From: Stenotrophomonas maltophilia
GTDB taxonomy: Bacteria; Pseudomonadota; Gammaproteobacteria; Xanthomonadales; Xanthomonadaceae
Direction of reading: 5' to 3'
NCBI RefSeq assembly: GCF_004684085.1
Contig: NZ_SRHZ01000008.1
Location: 1 to 64,000, forward strand
DNA: 64,000 nt
Position 1 is the stretch's first letter, and each line of letters starts with the position of its first letter. The notes below the pieces were generated by a model. That model had not been told where the DNA came from, did not search any database, and worked only from the letters and a program-made list of their open reading frames with translations. Made by a program: the position numbers and the translations under genes. This document shows, piece after piece, positions 9,210 to 20,125 of this stretch.

Positions 9210-10310
9210 ATGAAAAAAAAGAGTGGCGAACCCAAAATCAAGCAAACCGGTCACAGCGTAATCTCGCTGTTCTCCGGCTGCGGCGGAATGGATTTCGGAA
9301 TCAAGGCCGCCGGTGGCAACATAGTCTTTAGCAACGACATCCTGACGGATGCTTGCAAGACCCTTGAGAAATATTTCCCTGAGACCAAGGTTGTCTGCGG
9401 TGATATCGCCGGAGTCACGAACCTCCCTCCAGCTGATGTGGTTGTGGGGGGGTATCCATGCCAATCGTTCTCCATGGCGGGGAATCGCGATCCGAAGAAG
9501 GATGCTCGAACCAACCTATACAAGGAATTCCTCCGGGTGGTTGAGCTAGTGCAGCCTAAGTACTTCGTCGCGGAGAATGTTTCTGGACTGAAGCAGCTTG
9601 GTGAAGGCAGTTTTCTGGAAGAGCAGGAAAAGGCCTACAAGAAGGCTGGATATGAGGTAACTCATCACCTTCTTAATGCTCGTGACTTCGGCGTGCCGCA
9701 GTCTAGAAAGCGCCTGTTCATCGTGGGTATCAGGAAAGATCTAGCTCAGAGGTTCACTTTTCCCGACCCAACCCACGGCAAAGCAACCAAGAAGTCACCG
9801 CACCTGTTGCCGTACACATCTCACGGCGATGCTATCAAGGATCTTCCGCTTTGGCCTGCTGGTGAATTCTACGAACGTCCACACGATCCGGACGGCAATT
9901 TCTCGTGGTATTTCATGTCTCGCAACCGAAAGGCAAAGTGGGAAGATCCTGCTTTTACGGTAGTGGCGAACTGGAGGCACATAACGCTCCATCCGGCTAG
10001 CCCAACTATGAAATTGACTTGGTCAAATCTCGCCGATGGTTGGAAGCAGCGATGGGATTTTACCAGCGAGTACGATCATAAAGTCGAAGGCGAGGATCGG
10101 CACGTCCTCGAGGAGCCCCGACGCCTATCCTGGCGCGAGTGCGCTCGAATCCAAACCTTTCCGAAGGACTTCGAGCCAATCGGTGATGTCGATTCTAAAT
10201 TCACCCAGATCGGCAATGCCGTTCCACCTAAATTGGCAGAGGTCATCTTCCGCCACCTTTTCTCGGGCGAAGGGTTGATTGATTCAAAGCGCAGTCGCAG
10301 GGAGAGATAA
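9210..10310 (+). CDS. DNA (cytosine-5) methyltransferase
   Basis: A 366-residue C5-cytosine DNA methyltransferase. From ATG 9210 all the main motifs are in order: AdoMet motif I FSGCGG (21-26), catalytic PCQ loop GGYPCQSFS with Cys84, motif VI ENVSG (from 122), motif VIII QSRKRLF (from 164) and C-terminal IGNAVPP. The target-recognition region (about 200-300) is distinctive and its target cannot be read from sequence. TTG 9135 would add 25 residues but overlaps post-aceE sequence. Base composition is clearly more A/T-rich than the neighbours, indicating transfer. The next gene, a fused adenine methylase, starts right after the stop, so both form one operon. Confidence 0.92.
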   Translation: MKKKSGEPKIKQTGHSVISLFSGCGGMDFGIKAAGGNIVFSNDILTDACKTLEKYFPETKVVCGDIAGVTNLPPADVVVGGYPCQSFSMAGNRDPKKDARTNLYKEFLRVVELVQPKYFVAENVSGLKQLGEGSFLEEQEKAYKKAGYEVTHHLLNARDFGVPQSRKRLFIVGIRKDLAQRFTFPDPTHGKATKKSPHLLPYTSHGDAIKDLPLWPAGEFYERPHDPDGNFSWYFMSRNRKAKWEDPAFTVVANWRHITLHPASPTMKLTWSNLADGWKQRWDFTSEYDHKVEGEDRHVLEEPRRLSWRECARIQTFPKDFEPIGDVDSKFTQIGNAVPPKLAEVIFRHLFSGEGLIDSKRSRRER

Positions 10311-10311
10311 A

Positions 10312-13300
10312 GTGAATAAGGAACGCCTATTTGGCGATGCGTGCGATAGCTTGGTGCGGGCGGTGTCAAGTGCGTCTGTCCAGGCCAAGAATGAGGCACA
10401 GCTTCGGCACGAGGTCGAGGTTGCGCTTCATGCCGCGTGCACAACTATAGGTATTCCATGGACGCCGTTCCAGATGGAGCGAGCGCTGAAGCGCAAGGGT
10501 GAATCGACCAAGTTCATAGATGTGGCGCACGGTGGCGTTCTCATTGAGTATGAACCTCCGCGTTGCTTCGCTGGCACGCTCAATGCCAAGGCTAGGCACG
10601 CAAGAAGGCAAGTTGAAGAGTACTCGAGCCTGATCGCTTCTGAGGAAGGTCGCTCCATTGGCGATTATCTTCTTGTGGCATGGGATGGCGCTTCGGTTAC
10701 GTTCGGTCGTCATGACCGTGAATGTGGTGAGTGCAGCTGGGAAGCGGTAGTTCCGTTCGATTTGAACTCGGCGCGCCGCTTGCTGCTGGCAATGGAGTCA
10801 AGCGGAAAGCCGCTGGTTCATCCTAAGCTGTTGCAATCACTGATCGGTCCTGACTCTGCATCAGGAACTCAGCTAATTCCGGCCCTCTATTCGAGGGTCT
10901 GCAGTAGTACAAGCGATGGTGCCAGCAAAACCCATATGCTGTTTAGGGAGTGGGGGCGCCTATTTGCCCAAGTCGTAGGGTTCCAGCCGGATGGAATGAA
11001 GAAGCTCCTTCGACGGCAGGAGCTCTCCCACGGTCAGCCCTATGACTCAAATCCGACTGCATATCTATTTGCGCTGAATACATACGTTGCGATCGTCGCA
11101 AAGGTGGTGGTTGCCTGCGCGCTGCCGCGCGCCACACAGGACGTACTAGATGGCTCGGTTCCTGTCAGGACGCGCCTCTCCTCTGTTGAGAATGGAAGAC
11201 TCTATGAGGGCTCTGGAATTCTCAATATGCTAGACGGGGATTTCTTCTCTTGGTACTTGGATGAAAGTAGCTGGAGCCTGTTCGAGGGCGGTCTTGCGAT
11301 CCTGCTCGGAAAGTTGTCGGGAATTGACTTTGAGGTGGTGAAAAAGGATCCGGCCACCACGCGCGACCTGTTTAAAGGAATCTACGAGCAGTTTATCCCT
11401 AGAGAAATCCGCCACGCGTTGGGCGAGTTCTACACCCCGGATTGGCTTGCAGAGATGACTCTCGCGATGACCGACTGGACCGTTGAAGACTCGGTGACAG
11501 ACCCCGCATGCGGTTCAGGTACATTCTTGCTCGAAGCGCTACGTCGGCGCCTTCTCGATGGTCGATTTTCCAACGCTAAGGCCCTCTTGGAGGGTATCAA
11601 TGGCGTCGATTTGAATCCCTTGGCGGTACTGACGGCAAAGGCATCCTTGGCGGTATTCGTCGCGCCCTACCTCAGTCCAAGCGAGCCGGTGCGGCTTCCT
11701 GTCTATCTGGCCGACAGTATTAATCCGGCAAGGCCTGATGATGGATTGTTTCCATCATATAGTTACTCTCTAAGTACCGAGCTTGGGTTTGTAAACTTTG
11801 CAGCACCGCTGGAGTTGATAAAGAGCGACGCCTTCTTCCCGGTCTTCAGAAGAATTCGGGATCTCATCGAGCAAGATCGATCAGTCGATTACATTGCTCG
11901 CGATGTCGAGAAGATTCTTGGTCGCCATGGGCTTGATCCTTCTTTGATGCCCACGCTGAAAGAAGCAATCACTTCCTTCGTTGGGCTCCATGAGCAAGGA
12001 TGGAACGGAATCTGGTGCTCGATTGTTGCGGATCGATTCGCGGCGGGTGCGGTGGAACCTGCATCCTATGTATGTGGCAATCCACCGTGGATCAAGTGGA
12101 GCAATCTTCCGCGTGAGTACACCAAGCGAATCCAGCCTCTCTGCAAAGAACTGGGTGTCTTCAGTAGCGCCAAGTGGGTGGGCGGAATTGAAGGCGATGT
12201 TTCGACGGTGGTCGCGTTTCAGGCCATCCGTACTTACCTGGCGGTGGGTGGTCAGATGTGTCTGCTTATGCCTGGGTCTGTCTTTGAGACTCCCTCAAGT
12301 GCCGGTTTCCGCCAATTGCGCGTGGGATCTGAAGAGATGCAGTGCGCGTTCGAACGAGTTGATGATTTCGATAAGATCGCACCATTCGATGGTGTAAGTA
12401 ACATGCCTCGAGCTGTCCTCATAAGAAAATCAGAACGTACCAGATATCCGGTTTCGTACAATCGATGGGTTGCTAGGGGCGCGGCGGCTAGTGTTGCTCG
12501 CATCGCTAGAAGTGCCGATGAGTTCATTGCGGTCGCCGACGTAGAGCGCCTTTCTGCATGGCCTGTCCCAGGTGGAAGGGATAGGCCATGGATCGTCGGT
12601 CACAGTGATGAGATGGATGCGTTGAACGCCGTGTTTGGACAGCCAAATCCCAGGTACCAGGCAAGGAAGGGGGTGACGGCGGACCGAAATGGAATCTTCT
12701 GGGTGAAGCAGTCCGGGCCCGAAAAAGATGGCCTGTTGACTATCACTAACGAGGCCGATATTGGAAAGACAAAAGGTATTCCAAAGATCACTGCGCTTGT
12801 CGAAGCCAATCATGTCTTTCCTCTGTTGAGGGGACGTGGAGTTTCTAGGTTCAGGGCTACCCCGGACCCAGAGCTCCGCTACCTCGTCCCCCAACGAACC
12901 ATGCATGGAGATCCGGACCTTCACGAGCATAGCCCTCTTGCCTACGCATTCTTGCGGAACTTCCGGGATCAGCTCTCTGCGCGCTCTAGCTTAAAGAGGT
13001 TTCAGAAGGGGCAGGCGTATTACTCTCTGTGGACCGTCGGCGACTACACATTTTCACCTTACAAAGTGCTGTGGCGCGAGATTGGCGGAAGTGGATTTGA
13101 AGTTTCATATATCGGAAGCTCAAAGGTTGGCGATCGGGATGTGGTGGTTATTCCAGACCACAAGCTCTACTTCATTCCCGTTGAGACGGAGGATGAGGCC
13201 GCGTTCGTTACAGGTTTCCTTGGATCACGCGTGGTGTCGCGCTCTGTGGCGTCGTACGGTGCGACGCTTAGTTTTGGGGTAAGTGTTAGCGACTACATCC

Positions 13301-13440
13301 ACATTCCTACCTACGACCATCGAGTTGAGTTGATGAGACGGATCGCGGAGGAGGTGATGGCCGTGTCTACTGGCGGCGCAGAGGTTACGGAGGAAATGAT
13401 GAATCGAATCAACGAGTACGTAGTCAGGCTCATTTCTTAG
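10312..13440 (+). CDS. Eco57I-like N6-adenine methylase, possible fused endonuclease
   Basis: A 1042-residue protein. The start is GTG 10312, with GGGAGAG at 10300-10306, one base after the stop of the cytosine methyltransferase. Motif I DPACGSGT (397-404) and motif IV NPPW (590-593) mark a gamma-class N6-adenine methyltransferase of the Eco57I/type IIG kind. The first 130 residues hold FIDVAHGGVLIEYEPP, arranged like a PD-(D/E)XK nuclease core (D70, E79), but the expected lysine is E81, so nuclease activity is uncertain. The 450-residue C-terminal part probably contains the target-recognition domain. With the cytosine methyltransferase it forms a two-gene restriction-modification or phage-defence module. 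Codon use is A/T-richer than the surroundings. Confidence 0.85.
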   Translation: MNKERLFGDACDSLVRAVSSASVQAKNEAQLRHEVEVALHAACTTIGIPWTPFQMERALKRKGESTKFIDVAHGGVLIEYEPPRCFAGTLNAKARHARRQVEEYSSLIASEEGRSIGDYLLVAWDGASVTFGRHDRECGECSWEAVVPFDLNSARRLLLAMESSGKPLVHPKLLQSLIGPDSASGTQLIPALYSRVCSSTSDGASKTHMLFREWGRLFAQVVGFQPDGMKKLLRRQELSHGQPYDSNPTAYLFALNTYVAIVAKVVVACALPRATQDVLDGSVPVRTRLSSVENGRLYEGSGILNMLDGDFFSWYLDESSWSLFEGGLAILLGKLSGIDFEVVKKDPATTRDLFKGIYEQFIPREIRHALGEFYTPDWLAEMTLAMTDWTVEDSVTDPACGSGTFLLEALRRRLLDGRFSNAKALLEGINGVDLNPLAVLTAKASLAVFVAPYLSPSEPVRLPVYLADSINPARPDDGLFPSYSYSLSTELGFVNFAAPLELIKSDAFFPVFRRIRDLIEQDRSVDYIARDVEKILGRHGLDPSLMPTLKEAITSFVGLHEQGWNGIWCSIVADRFAAGAVEPASYVCGNPPWIKWSNLPREYTKRIQPLCKELGVFSSAKWVGGIEGDVSTVVAFQAIRTYLAVGGQMCLLMPGSVFETPSSAGFRQLRVGSEEMQCAFERVDDFDKIAPFDGVSNMPRAVLIRKSERTRYPVSYNRWVARGAAASVARIARSADEFIAVADVERLSAWPVPGGRDRPWIVGHSDEMDALNAVFGQPNPRYQARKGVTADRNGIFWVKQSGPEKDGLLTITNEADIGKTKGIPKITALVEANHVFPLLRGRGVSRFRATPDPELRYLVPQRTMHGDPDLHEHSPLAYAFLRNFRDQLSARSSLKRFQKGQAYYSLWTVGDYTFSPYKVLWREIGGSGFEVSYIGSSKVGDRDVVVIPDHKLYFIPVETEDEAAFVTGFLGSRVVSRSVASYGATLSFGVSVSDYIHIPTYDHRVELMRRIAEEVMAVSTGGAEVTEEMMNRINEYVVRLIS

Positions 13441-13838: not shown

Positions 13839-14207
13839 CTACTCCCGAACCTGCAGCCGCTCAACAGCCTGAGCAGTCAACGCCACACACGCCATCTTCA
13901 ACCCTTCCATCACCCGATCCCCCAGGTACTCCTCGGGCGCACCGTTCTGCCGAGTCCGCTCCGCAGCTAGCATCAGCTCCGCCACCACACGCAGCCCAGC
14001 CAACGCGCAATCCGCGTCCGCCAGCTGAAGGCAACGCCCAGGCAGTTGATGACGCTCCGGCCAAGGCTGGCCGTCCGCAGCCGCACCGGTTTCGATGCGG
14101 TGCAGCGTGGCGACGAAGGGGTTGGGATCGACGGAAGGTTCGCGCTCGGGTTCGGCGTTGTCCGGATCGTACTGCGCGTGCAGGGAACGGAAGTCCGATG
14201 TGTTCAT
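13839..14207 (-). CDS. Hypothetical protein behind a structured leader
   Basis: A 122-residue protein from ATG 14207, with GGAG eight bases upstream on the minus strand; longer in-frame starts would translate the structured leader. It is acidic and lacks a signal peptide. The N-terminal third (MNTSDFRSLHAQYDP) is Pro/Glu/Asp-rich; the C-terminal half (LRVVAELMLAAERTR, then YLGDRVMEGLKMACVALTAQ) looks like two amphipathic helices. Function not recognised. It vaguely resembles the small Pseudomonas DUF3077/DUF6124-type proteins in size and helical tail, which I offer only as a hint. Its most notable property is the roughly 300-nt folded RNA ahead of it. Confidence 0.65.
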   Translation of the reverse strand: MNTSDFRSLHAQYDPDNAEPEREPSVDPNPFVATLHRIETGAAADGQPWPERHQLPGRCLQLADADCALAGLRVVAELMLAAERTRQNGAPEEYLGDRVMEGLKMACVALTAQAVERLQVRE

Positions 14208-14214
14208 GGCAATG

Positions 14215-14523
14215 CTCCGTACAGGACAGATAGCAGCGCCACCTATAAAGGCGGCGGACGGTGCGTGTCTCGAAAACCGGTGAGTACCCAAGCCGGCGGG
14301 CCCGAAGGCCCCCACGCACCGCCCGCCATGGAACGCGAACGGATTGCCAGCCGGCGCCATCCGAAGATGACGCCGACTGGCAAGCGTAAAGCACTGGGTA
14401 TTCAGACGGGTTTTCGAGTCCCGCGCCACCCTTTTCCGGTGGCACGCCAAGAGATACCCGTGCAGCAACCAAATGCCAAGAATCCACAGGACTGATGATT
14501 GCCAGTCCTGACGCTTTCGGCAT
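14215..14523 (-). ncRNA. Candidate multi-hairpin leader RNA
   Basis: Read on the minus strand this region folds into at least five hairpins. Long-range arms at 14395-14420 and 14267-14290 share CTCGAAAACC and TACCCA and pair with each other. Inside is a 17-bp stem (14366-14382 with 14345-14361) capped by C-UUCG-G, holding two G-U wobbles, and a second UUCG hairpin (14298-14311). Further hairpins are at 14487-14510, 14425-14443 and 14237-14256, the last with one more G-U pair. The wobbles are pairable only on the minus-strand RNA, so the RNA rather than the DNA appears to be maintained. It ends just before the ribosome site of the 122-residue gene, suggesting a cis-acting leader; an independent RNA is possible. 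Confidence 0.55.
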
Positions 14524-16303: not shown

Positions 16304-19300
16304 TCACCCCATGCTTGCCGCACGCACCTGGATATCCTGCTGTGCTCGCTCGTCCTGCAGTTGCTGCTCCTGCTGATTGGCCAATGCACGCTGTTGCGCC
16401 TCCCTGCTGACCGAATCGAATTGCAGCAGTGATTCTTCCACCGGCGTCTGCGCGGCCTCTGCCGTTGGCATGGAAGCGCGCAGATGGGCAGGGTCGCTCG
16501 CCTCGCCCTGCACCACGAAGAGGGTATGGCCGGCGGGATGCGTTGCCGTGGCGTTGCTTACGAGCACATGATCAACGTGGGATAGATCATTGTCCTTGGC
16601 CAGAACCAGCAGGCTGGCGGTCATTTTTTCGCTTGTGGCATCGAAGCTGCGGCCGTGTTTGGCATCCAGCTCTTCCACGCCCTCGCGGATCTGCTGATAG
16701 AGCGCGTGATCGGGATGGCTGGGCTGCATCGGATTGCTTTCTGCCAGAGCGGCGGGCTGCGGGTGTGCACGCTCTGCTGGAACATGTTCTTCACCCGAGG
16801 GCTGGGAGGGGAGCGTTGCCCGATGGGCAGCGTCTCCGCCAATCTCAATGGCTCTGGGAACTGCAGCATCCAGCTCCGGATTGTCCCGGGCCGCTGGTGG
16901 CGAGACGGGGGGATCCAACGGGACTTCCTGTGCAGTCCTTATTGCCTGCTCGTTCTCAGAAGGTCGCGGTAGTGGCGTCTCTGCTTCGTCTTGAACTGAA
17001 GCGGTGGCGGACTGCACCGGCAGTGCGTCAGTAAGCATCTGCGGCTCAACATTGCCCTGATGCACATGGGGCTCAGGCTTGGGCTCTTGTACCTGAACTG
17101 GCTGGGTTGAGCCTGCACTGGCCGCAGTACTTGCGGCCGTGACATTCTGGGTCTGTCGCGCCTGCTCTACATTCGGCTCTTGCTGCGAGACATTCTGAGG
17201 ATTCACCACCGGTGCGGTCGGTACTGGTTCGTGCTCCCGAGCATCCCGCTGGGCAGCTTCCTCTGCGTGCTGCGCCGAATCGACTTGCCGTTCAGAGCGA
17301 TTCTCGACTCGCTGGCCACTGTCACGCGAAGGACGCGTGCGCTCTGGCTCAACAATCACCGCTGACGGCACTGCGATGACAGGAGCGGGCGCCGGAGCGG
17401 GCTCGCGAGCGGGTTCAACGGCAGCGTTGGTTGCCATACCTCGTTGGAGGTCACTGTCGATCTTCAGCGCCTCAACAGGGTCAATCGTCACCCCTCGCGT
17501 CTCCAGTACGGCCGCAGACGCTGCCTGCTGCACATCCACCGCCGCGCTGCCTTGGCGGTTTGCCTCCTGCAGCGCCTGTCTGTGTGCGTCCTGTTCCTTG
17601 GCGGTCAACGCAGCAATGCGCAGTTCGGGCACGTCGGGCGTCGTTGCTTGATCTGCAGGTGTAGCACCTTGCGCAGCCAGTAGCGCTTCGGGCCGAAGCT
17701 GCGATTGAGCACGCGCAATGTCTTCAATGGTGGTGGTGCCGGTGAGCACCATCCGGTTGCCGCCCGCATCACCGAAAGCCGCGATGGCACTGCCTGCGCT
17801 GGGCGCGTGGGTACGGGGGTCTGGCATCAGTTCCAGAACCACGTCGCCTGTCTTGCCCTGGAGATTCAACGTCTGCTCTACGGCGACGGCCGTAGCCGTA
17901 AGCTGCTGCTCGGTGCGCTCGATGCCGTGCCGCGCGTACAGCGCATCCACCTGGCCACGTATGCCTTCGGGTGCAATCTGTGCGGTATCTTTGAGCTGCT
18001 TGGCGATGTCATGCAGTCCGGCGATACCTTCATTCTGGCTTTGCCAGGTGATCTCCAGCTCGTCGCTCAGGTTCCGGTTGGCGATGCTGTCAAAGATCAT
18101 GCCCTTGCTGACCCATTGGCCGTCCACTTGCCGTGTGTAGGCGCTGCCGTCGCTCGCGCTCAGCGTGTTGGCGCTGGCTTCCGCGTCCTGGATGGCGCGG
18201 GGAACCGATGGATTGTTCGCGTCGCCGAAGTCGTTCCAGCGCCCCTGCTCGTGGGCAACCATGTAGCGCGCAGCCATGGCAGCTTTGGTGTTTGAGGCGT
18301 TCTGGGCGATGACCGTGCGTGACTGTTCATCCAGCGCCTGTGCCTGCTCCTCAGAGACCGGCAAGTGGCGGCTGTTGGGCACTCGCCCATCCACCATTTC
18401 CTTGATTTCCAGTTCCCATTGCCCCGAGCTGGCATCGCGTACAAAGGCGCGATCGGTTTCGAAGGCACCTCGCGCCGGCTCGGCCAAGCCATTGGCGTTC
18501 AGCCGGTAGGGATTCTGTGGCGGTGGCGGGTTCGACAGGCCCAACTCATACGAGGCCCGAGCCGCCTGCCAGTTCAACTGGCGCTCCAATGTGCCGGTGG
18601 CAACGTAGCTGGTGCGGAAGGTAACGTCGTCACCCTGTGCCGTCTGCACCGGGCGGACTTCCACGCCGCTACCGAGGTCGCTGCTCTGGACCTGCTGTTG
18701 TTCGCCCGCTCTTAGCCAACGTCCATTGGGATCGGCCGGATCGCGCGTCCAAGTGCGCCCCATCGGGTCAACCTGGGAATAGACGCGCTCGATGTCTTTC
18801 TGCTCGGCCCAACGCTCGCCGAGGTACGCACCCAGGACGCCGCCACCGATACCCGTTGCAATGGCGCCGGGCCCCGTCCATGAGCCCGAAGCGAGGCCGA
18901 CACCAGCGCCGCCAAGAAAGCCACCAACTGCGCCACCGACGTTGCGGCCGACGAAGTGTGCAGCGGTGGAATCTGCGCCTGCGGCATTGCCCTGCGAGTT
19001 CAGCTCGATCCACTTGTGCCCGGAGGTGGCGAAGTCGTGCGCAAGCAGGGCGACGCCTGCAACGCCGGCAACCTTGATGGCGGGATTGATTCCGGCGTGC
19101 ACGCCATGCGGTGCAACGTCGGCCACTGCTTCAGCAACGGTCACCGCATGGGGAGGGCCGCGTGGGGCTCCTGGCTGCAGGGGCGCGTGCGATGGTGGTT
19201 CGGGCAGGTCAGCGAACAGTCGCGGTCCTGTGCCCAGGCTGGCATGCGCGGCGACCCAGTTCGCGCGCGTGGTCGACATCTCGCTCAGGTTCAATGCGCT

Positions 19301-20125
19301 GTAGTCGTGCAGCGGTCGTTCGAAGAGCGTCTTGCTGACAGCGTCATAGCCATCGATGGGTTTCAGATGCAGGCGCACCTGCGCGACGTCGACAGGTTGC
19401 GTGCTGTTGGTAGTGGCATGCTGCGCGAGGCTGCGCTCAAGCGCCTGGTACTCAGCGGCGGACTGGCTTGCGAAGGCCAGCGGCTCGGCACCGAAGGCGC
19501 TTACGGGGTAGCCGTTGATGCGGAGTTGCGGGTGTTCGAGCGCGGTGGGCAGTTCGAAGTTGCTGAACCCACGATTGGCGGGCGCCCCATCTACGAAGGC
19601 GACAAGCGGCTTGCCTGTGGAGATGGCGTTTTCGAGGAACTGGGAACTGCCGGCGTTCCACATCATGTCCTGGAGCGCGCCTTTGTAATCGCCCAAGGGA
19701 ACGAAGCCCTGGGTCTTCATGAAGCTCTCAAACTTATCCGTAATCGCTAGGAAGTCTGGGTGCTGGGAGGGGCGATCTCCGGCATCGGTGATGTATTTTC
19801 CCCATGGCGTGTTGCCAATAATCCCAGCTTTGTAATCCGCGTCTTCCACATACGCGCCGGCACTCAGGAAGTTGGAGGCGCCAGCTCGGTCCTTCCCTGA
19901 GAAAGCGACGTAATCAATGCTTGGCGGAAGCTTCGGCGGATGACTGGCAATCTTCTGCTTGAGAAAATCCTCGTAGCTTGTGAGCGTGTCGGGTCCCGAG
20001 CCCGGCGATTTCAGGTAGTCAAGAACGACTGCCTTCTGTTGGTCAGATAGCAGGCTGCCGTCCCCCGCATTCGTTGCGGGATTCAACGTCGTAAGCGCAA
20101 AGTCATCAAACGAGAACGTAGGCAC
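16304..20125 (-). CDS. Large XVIPCD type IV secretion effector (X-Tfe)
   Basis: A 1273-residue protein starting at GTG 20125. The last ~137 residues are an XVIPCD, the signal by which Xanthomonadales VirD4 recruits antibacterial effectors: YQQIREGVEELDAKHGRSFD, LSHVDHVLVS and LFVVQGEASDPAHLRASM. The first ~260 residues form the presumed toxin; ALQDMMWNAGSSQFLENAI faintly recalls lysozyme-like folds, but I cannot assign an activity. A glycine-zipper hydrophobic stretch (VGGAVGGFLGGAGVGLASGS, about 390-430) is flanked by charged regions, and a 250-residue Gln/Pro/Glu-rich linker precedes the XVIPCD. The gene 11 bases upstream (20137-20637) is probably co-transcribed. The machinery itself is not in this window. 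Confidence 0.85.
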   Translation of the reverse strand: MPTFSFDDFALTTLNPATNAGDGSLLSDQQKAVVLDYLKSPGSGPDTLTSYEDFLKQKIASHPPKLPPSIDYVAFSGKDRAGASNFLSAGAYVEDADYKAGIIGNTPWGKYITDAGDRPSQHPDFLAITDKFESFMKTQGFVPLGDYKGALQDMMWNAGSSQFLENAISTGKPLVAFVDGAPANRGFSNFELPTALEHPQLRINGYPVSAFGAEPLAFASQSAAEYQALERSLAQHATTNSTQPVDVAQVRLHLKPIDGYDAVSKTLFERPLHDYSALNLSEMSTTRANWVAAHASLGTGPRLFADLPEPPSHAPLQPGAPRGPPHAVTVAEAVADVAPHGVHAGINPAIKVAGVAGVALLAHDFATSGHKWIELNSQGNAAGADSTAAHFVGRNVGGAVGGFLGGAGVGLASGSWTGPGAIATGIGGGVLGAYLGERWAEQKDIERVYSQVDPMGRTWTRDPADPNGRWLRAGEQQQVQSSDLGSGVEVRPVQTAQGDDVTFRTSYVATGTLERQLNWQAARASYELGLSNPPPPQNPYRLNANGLAEPARGAFETDRAFVRDASSGQWELEIKEMVDGRVPNSRHLPVSEEQAQALDEQSRTVIAQNASNTKAAMAARYMVAHEQGRWNDFGDANNPSVPRAIQDAEASANTLSASDGSAYTRQVDGQWVSKGMIFDSIANRNLSDELEITWQSQNEGIAGLHDIAKQLKDTAQIAPEGIRGQVDALYARHGIERTEQQLTATAVAVEQTLNLQGKTGDVVLELMPDPRTHAPSAGSAIAAFGDAGGNRMVLTGTTTIEDIARAQSQLRPEALLAAQGATPADQATTPDVPELRIAALTAKEQDAHRQALQEANRQGSAAVDVQQAASAAVLETRGVTIDPVEALKIDSDLQRGMATNAAVEPAREPAPAPAPVIAVPSAVIVEPERTRPSRDSGQRVENRSERQVDSAQHAEEAAQRDAREHEPVPTAPVVNPQNVSQQEPNVEQARQTQNVTAASTAASAGSTQPVQVQEPKPEPHVHQGNVEPQMLTDALPVQSATASVQDEAETPLPRPSENEQAIRTAQEVPLDPPVSPPAARDNPELDAAVPRAIEIGGDAAHRATLPSQPSGEEHVPAERAHPQPAALAESNPMQPSHPDHALYQQIREGVEELDAKHGRSFDATSEKMTASLLVLAKDNDLSHVDHVLVSNATATHPAGHTLFVVQGEASDPAHLRASMPTAEAAQTPVEESLLQFDSVSREAQQRALANQQEQQLQDERAQQDIQVRAASMG

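Follow-up and report, generated by a model that had tools for sequence, protein, structure and literature searches.

A putative self-recognising C4 leader RNA from a chromosomal, paralogue-expanded branch in Stenotrophomonas

Anatomy of the leader

The window analysed here is a stretch of 64,000 nucleotides from Stenotrophomonas maltophilia (assembly GCF_004684085.1, contig NZ_SRHZ01000008.1, positions 1 to 64,000). On its minus strand, from 14443 down to the ATG at 14207, it carries in order a hairpin (H1), two short blocks (a1 and b1), a second hairpin (H2), a C4 antisense RNA, a GGTGGC block, a Shine-Dalgarno sequence and a 122-codon gene (Table 1). H2 occupies the position at which canonical leaders carry a terminator, and the b1 block is hypervariable both among loci and among orthologues. 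Elsewhere in the window, positions 10279-13440 (plus strand) encode a 1053-residue protein with an N6 DNA methylase domain, and positions 16304-20125 (minus strand) a 1273-residue protein with an X-Tfes XVIPCD domain (PF20410), a domain known from type IV secretion effectors of Xanthomonadales. A search for sigma-70 promoters at the locus gave no match.

Table 1. Features of the leader and its gene in the window
Feature	Position	Strand	Evidence
Hairpin H1, GCCACC...GGTGGC	14425..14443	-	100% of cells paired in 29 leaders; double change at one pair
a1 target block CTCGAAAACC, complement of C4 a'	14409..14418	-	chain test p = 0.003; genome block search
b1 target block TGAATACCCA, complement of C4 b' (one mismatch in the window's copy)	14395..14404	-	
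Hairpin H2, 18 pairs, UUCG loop, no T run after	14344..14383	-	double changes at five pairs
C4 antisense RNA	14247..14333	-	RF01695, 69 bits, full model
b' loop of C4 (loop of helix P3)	14281..14292	-	
a' strand of C4	14269..14278	-	
GGTGGC block GGTGGCGC just 3' of C4	14236..14243	-	inferred from fold
Shine-Dalgarno GGAG; no a2b2 target overlapping	14215..14218	-	downstream test p = 0.79
Gene, 122 codons, paralogous family of uncharacterised helical proteins	13839..14207	-	

The minus strand of the stretch 14530-14204 had a fold energy of −171.5 kcal/mol (z = −7.3, with none of 100 dinucleotide shuffles as stable), and the plus strand of the same stretch gave z = −5.4. Two long-range arms already described in the original prediction were recovered, with CTCGAAAACC at 14418-14409 opposite GGTTTTCGAG at 14278-14269 and TACCCA at 14400-14395 opposite TGGGTA at 14290-14285; they are the a' and b' loops of C4 facing a1 and b1 in the same transcript. 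When the upstream stretch was shuffled 300 times, this pairing scored p = 0.003, the lowest value the test allows. An exact search of the whole genome for both blocks, at a gap of 2-20, returned only the two facing sites, and hence no further exact target of the window's C4 in its own genome. The b1:b' duplex of the window's copy has one C-A mismatch that is absent in orthologues such as L143. The UUCG-capped stem of the original prediction is H2, in which two of the pairs are G-U, the second hairpin with a UUCG loop forms helix P2 of C4, and its hairpin near the ribosome site corresponds to a small hairpin around the Shine-Dalgarno sequence in the minimum-energy fold. By the fold model, the GGTGGCGC block has two possible partners: the 3' arm of C4 helix P1 and, when the long-range fold forms, H1.

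Across 29 homologous leaders, 93.5% of cells were paired, and double-change cells numbered 60 against 19.7 in shuffles (0 of 500 reached 60) and 2-10 when the partners were slid, while one of the five measures, that of further pair types, did not rise above the shuffles (147 of 500 reached it). In the C4 helices P1, P2 and P3, 98.9, 87.6 and 82.1% of cells were paired, with double changes at 1, 5 and 1 pairs. The covariation on which the original prediction had staked its claim was thus present, and together with the z-score of the fold it supports selection on the minus-strand RNA structure.

The 3' half of the leader is almost certainly a C4 antisense RNA, a member of a phage antisense-RNA family: RF01695 matched at 69 bits, against a gathering score of 45, over model positions 1-87 of 87 (14333-14247), and nothing else in Rfam reached E = 1 at the locus. 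A folded leader of no named class had been predicted; the folded, selected leader ahead of a small uncharacterised gene stands, and the lack of a class gives way to a named Rfam family above its gathering score. The a' and b' segments of C4 are complementary to a target in their own transcript, the upstream a1b1, and no a2b2 target lies at the ribosome site of the next gene; the latter is a feature of C4 action in phage P1 and falls outside the Rfam model. That H1, a1b1 and H2 match no Rfam family above threshold would fit a separate leader class without a name, for instance a riboswitch, but with the 3' half matching C4 over the full model, and with P1 sharing the order a1-b1-spacer-C4-gene, such a class has next to no chance of being the right answer. 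Neither isrK (RF01394) nor c4-a1b1 (RF03163) matched in the window up to E = 10, and no isrK match lay above the cut-off in the window's own genome. A weak isrK match of 16.9 bits (G000 C74:23242-23317), just upstream of C4 copy C74 (23334), is perhaps a trace of an ancestral layout.

The downstream gene and the dispersal of its leader

The gene at the window's locus has evolved under purifying selection (median dN/dS 0.095 over 22 orthologue comparisons). The suggested link to DUF3077 (PF11275) found no support, as a Pfam search with the protein gave no match up to E = 1. Scanning 229 genomes for PF11275 gave 0 matches, but its controls gave 0 as well, so the scan says little about DUF3077 genes in Pseudomonas. 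No family for the protein was found in Pfam, NCBIfam, PADLOC or PHROGs, and a defence or phage family was likewise set aside after 13 family members returned nothing from PADLOC or PHROGs. The predicted structure of the 122-residue protein (mean pLDDT 73) contains helices at residues 30-39, 60-88 and 97-118, and a structure search of PDB and BFVD gave no match at E ≤ 0.001. The family was present in 31 of 61 genomes of the genus, and among 120 listed relatives one came from a MAG labelled Pseudomonas. Eleven viral contigs (L235-L245) also encode relatives; in L238, L242 and L245 the protein match ends 12 bases from the contig end, where the assembly perhaps breaks at a repeated leader, or where prophage borders may lie.

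In the window, the gene's frame is open through C4 (13839-14531, minus strand), and database relatives of 173-240 residues, among them P0001, P0003 and P0007, read into the leader. Translation through C4 into the gene, in the manner of orf45, was rejected for want of a clear frame preference: the gene's frame was open through C4 at 33 of 42 loci and the other two frames at 27 and 26, and among 65 distinct named loci the counts were 47 for the gene's frame and 32 and 42 for the others. Given this, the 173-240-residue relatives are probably over-long gene calls.

Nine C4 matches stood above the cut-off in the window's own genome, and a tenth copy (C41), found through its protein, has the same layout below the Rfam cut-off. 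Across the genus, C4 matches occurred in 39 of 61 genomes (33 genomes with 7 to 26 each and six with one or two), counts made at E ≤ 0.001 that may include a few 116-nt repeats; in the wider sample, 28 of 149 family genomes and 18 of 274 class genomes carried C4. The 80 loci from named genomes were all from Stenotrophomonas, some under the old name [Pseudomonas] hibiscicola. The 116-nt repeat just mentioned is a weak C4 match (G000 C26:21155-21270, C9:51017-51132 and C31:166389-166504; also L075) of a different layout with no gene start behind it, and two of its three own-genome copies lie at contig ends; these repeats (C26, C9, C31 end) and L075 were excluded from the comparisons below.

Judged by its flanks, the window's locus is at a fixed chromosomal place: of 24 other orthologues, 23 match its 1,180-base upstream flank, over best pieces of 211 to 1,009 bases. 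The downstream flank has a match in 7 of the 24 and differs among most orthologues. Dispersed C4 copies within one genome have already been reported for Acinetobacter in PMC5320573, which credits Weinberg 2010 with predicting C4 in Xanthomonadales. The C4 family and its multicopy state in Acinetobacter are therefore known, and the Stenotrophomonas branch with a1b1 alone appeared in none of the open-licence literature found by titles and listings, supplementary files apart.

Targets and terminators compared with canonical C4 leaders

In other Gammaproteobacteria and phage P1 the canonical layout is a1b1, an intrinsic terminator, C4, and a2b2 at the ribosome site. We compared 44 Stenotrophomonas loci with 69 others from the family, the class and phage P1, chaining an a' run and a b' run and scoring the chain against 300 dinucleotide shuffles (p ≤ 0.02, uncorrected); L075 and the duplicate first C4 of L082 were left out, and the near-duplicates L025/L047, L088/L089 and L092/L093 were all counted. 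The upstream target a1b1 was found at 39/44 Stenotrophomonas and 66/69 canonical loci, whereas the downstream target a2b2 was found at 0/44 versus 63/69. The upstream failures were L057, L067, L078, L080 and L081 in Stenotrophomonas and L046, L094 and L095 among the canonical loci, of which L038, L042, L094, L095, L099 and L114 failed downstream. Phage P1 passed both tests, in agreement with its record, which annotates a2 and b2 as the site of repression and marks a1 and b1 as putative.

A second set from named genomes, in which C4 was above threshold at 67 of 80 loci (the 13 just below were inspected by eye only), gave the upstream target at 60/67 and the downstream target at 0/67 at p ≤ 0.02; it held 41 distinct b' sequences, and many of its 67 loci are orthologues of one another. 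Upstream failures here were L171, L173, L193, L194, L205, L214 and L222. Only at p ≤ 0.05 did any locus pass the downstream test (3/44 and 3/67). By these sequence comparisons, the window's leader is a member of a chromosomal, paralogue-expanded Stenotrophomonas branch of C4 leaders.

The branch also departs from the canonical layout in its terminator. A terminator-like stem with a T run lay between b1 and C4 at 64 of 66 canonical loci (four control stretches, 0 to 3 of 65-66) but at 1 of 43 Stenotrophomonas loci (controls 0 to 4 of 43), and a laxer score gave 66/66 canonical, with p ≤ 0.05 against shuffles in 50/66, versus 3/42 Stenotrophomonas loci. No terminator-like site was found in the window between 13750 and 14680. 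When b1 was blocked in silico to mimic bound C4, the predicted terminator rose by more than 0.2 at 37 of 64 canonical loci and fell at none, against 3 up and 11 down when an equal upstream stretch was blocked as a control; in P1 it went from 0.63 to 0.98. By this response, attenuation of its own leader is probably a further activity of canonical C4. At the canonical loci and in P1 (48255-48340), the end of b1 lies next to or within a small hairpin in competition with the terminator ahead of C4 (TGCGG-ACAA-CCGCA in P1), so that C4 bound at b1 is predicted to favour termination.

The same response speaks for a mode of action by trans negative feedback alone, under which mature C4 would bind the a1b1 of sister transcripts, the duplex would be cut by RNase III or transcription would stop near H2, the locus would limit itself and any cis pairing would be incidental; the CI RNA of phage P4 is reported to act by termination (PMC4825925). 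With the terminator missing from 42 of 43 branch loci and from the window's stretch, and with a cis fold predicted to win at nearly all branch loci (below), we regard this reading as doubtful, though with an appreciable chance of being right.

Rfam matches to isrK or c4-a1b1 were found at 7 of 15 canonical loci and at 0 of 20 Stenotrophomonas loci; c4-a1b1 itself, named in Weinberg 2010 (PMC2864571), matched P1 and 4 of the 15 canonical loci tested, and none of the 20 Stenotrophomonas loci at its gathering score. It describes an element with the same position and role as the window's a1b1, a target upstream of C4, from which the window's leader and these 20 loci differ in giving no Rfam match. 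RNA-seq of Burkholderia cenocepacia lists isrK as a terminated RNA of 81 nt that shares a transcription unit with C4 and immediately precedes it (PMC4603805). The comparison of these elements suggests that one common layout, a1b1 - terminator - C4 - a2b2, may stand behind the separate Rfam families c4-a1b1, isrK and C4.

Within Lysobacteraceae, canonical C4 leaders with both targets precede genes for a SymE-type toxin, Bro-N, Rha and RadC (L021 and L084; also L035, L043 and L085), a variety that suggests C4 as a general leader cassette. One upstream-only C4 leader (L076, genome G145) precedes an HI1420-type addiction-module antidote gene in place of the usual protein.

Self-recognition and a proposed switch

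To compare partners, an initial duplex test on stretches that included GC-rich stems was replaced, as it separated cognate from non-cognate pairs poorly. In the comparison used, which left out L032 and L081, no other b1 fitted b' as well as that of its own locus at 38 of 44 loci in five genomes; in the window's own genome this held for 7 of 10, and C41 clearly cross-fitted C40. At the window's locus there are nine b1/b' allele pairs, eight among 25 orthologues and the ninth in L164, and with one representative of each the cognate partner was best in 8/9. At this locus, then, b1 and b' changed together and the protein stayed conserved. Self-pairing of a1b1 with a'b' is very probably under selection.

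The median b' loop is 16 nt in Stenotrophomonas versus 9 nt in canonical leaders, and the triplet TCC, which would face the ribosome site, occurs in 45 of 69 canonical b' loops versus 7 of 44 in Stenotrophomonas. A plain reason for the variability of b' is that it was freed when b2 was lost. L149 and L171 (S. maltophilia LMG 978) lack H1, a1 and b1 and keep H2, C4 and the gene, and one copy in strain MDMC339 (L173) has an a1b1 mismatched to its C4; these three indicate that the pairing is dispensable in some strains. These exceptions, the drift of a freed b' and the loss of both known output devices, a2b2 and the terminator, would fit a relic, in which the outputs of the leader are gone, only the gene matters and the co-change of b1 and b' is compensatory drift in a hairpin-like duplex. 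Yet long matched pairs are kept at the great majority of loci in both sets, b' has lengthened and not decayed, and the helices covary, and we hold a relic to be quite unlikely.

The hypervariable b' could also reflect an arms race, with chromosomal C4 copies acting in trans against phages or plasmids; C4 of P1 is an immunity RNA, and the same idea has been raised for the Acinetobacter copies (PMC5320573). However, b' matches the b1 of its own leader, and the a+b target strings of the two alleles tried gave exact matches in 0 contigs of the viral collection, which makes immunity a very improbable function of the branch.

The nested a1:a' + b1:b' fold beat a forced C4 fold at 41 of 43 Stenotrophomonas loci (mean difference −10.5 kcal/mol over 44 loci, including the canonical L032, which was grouped with Stenotrophomonas) and at 43 of 65 canonical loci (mean −3.4 kcal/mol), with L046, L094, L095 and L081 left out. 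The stretch before a1 also paired with the stretch after a' in 41 of 42 Stenotrophomonas versus 44 of 65 canonical cis folds. That the same cis fold can form in canonical leaders counts against the switch proposed below, and since the energy model has no pseudoknots, C4 and the long-range pairing might coexist. A rod that hides the start region was rejected: the predicted unpaired fraction of that region was 0.38 in the rod versus 0.30 in the C4 state, and it was more open in the rod by more than 0.1 at 13 of 42 loci and lower at 0, a small difference that runs the opposite way and fits poorly with a hidden ribosome site.

From the anatomy, complementarity, co-variation and lack of other devices seen in these sequences, we propose that the leader acts as a self-recognising RNA switch after the model of Salmonella isrK-orf45, an explanation to which, as a whole, we give a probability of about 0.5. 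In the isrK-orf45 system of Gifsy-1, the cis-paired form is translationally inactive and IsrK supplied in trans opens and activates it (PMC4825925). This precedent and the favoured cis rod lead us to prefer, tentatively and with less confidence than the explanation as a whole, switching between rod and C4 with released pieces that would act in trans. On a fresh transcript, a1b1 and a'b' would pair with each other in cis, giving a long, locked rod in which C4 cannot fold. When C4 does fold, RNase P, reported to process the 5' end of C4 in P1/P7 (PMC5320573), would free it; the remaining 5' piece would contain a1b1 and stop close to the strong H2 hairpin. Being antisense to each other, the two products would work in trans, chiefly at transcripts from their own locus, and shift sister transcripts between the rod and the C4-forming, processed state, and this shift would determine the output of the small helical protein. 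Going by the isrK-orf45 precedent, the rod would be the state of low expression, a direction that is here a guess.

The leader resembles the C4 of P1/P7 (immI operon, c4-icd-ant) in RNA family, fold, upstream a1/b1 and a gene start soon after C4. In P1, unlike in the window's leader, a2 and b2 precede icd and a terminator-like hairpin separates b1 from C4, and the gene downstream in the window is neither icd nor ant. With isrK-orf45-anrP of Gifsy-1 (IsrK = RF01394) it shares an upstream RNA element that pairs in cis with a downstream stretch, and a stable RNA of about 80 nt (STnc1160), which we infer to be a C4, is processed there from the read-through transcript (PMC4825925). The short IsrK RNA, in contrast, is closed by a terminator and exerts its effect through orf45 translation, whereas the window's leader has neither a terminator nor a match to isrK and its branch no frame preference through C4. 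For STnc1160, that work raises the possibility of action on the isrK terminator in the manner of P4 CI RNA, though the relief expected in its co-expression test was not seen (PMC4825925). The P4 CI RNA (seqA, seqC) is likewise an antisense RNA released by processing, whose own transcript contains complementary sites on both sides of it, upstream and downstream (PMC4825925); by description it differs in acting by termination, the window's leader having neither a downstream site nor a terminator. The Group 1 sRNAs of Acinetobacter baumannii, 21 dispersed C4-like RNAs with an upstream region and a variable a' loop, are also similar, and are set apart by their description in the available text of PMC5320573, which gives no pairing of upstream region with loop and no linked gene family.

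As the branch keeps a1b1 with no other target, it isolates what a1b1 does. A further reading of the proposed switch, which we think unlikely, is a genome-wide set of private switches, in which C4 from one transcript would unlock C4 only within the same locus and each locus would hold a b1/b' lock-and-key pair, replaced as a unit even where the locus is fixed. If that reading is true, Stenotrophomonas would have converted an immunity RNA of phages into switches spread across its genome. The branch offers dozens of matched RNA pairs in one genus, with nine alleles at one locus, which may be used to measure how RNA self-recognition evolves.
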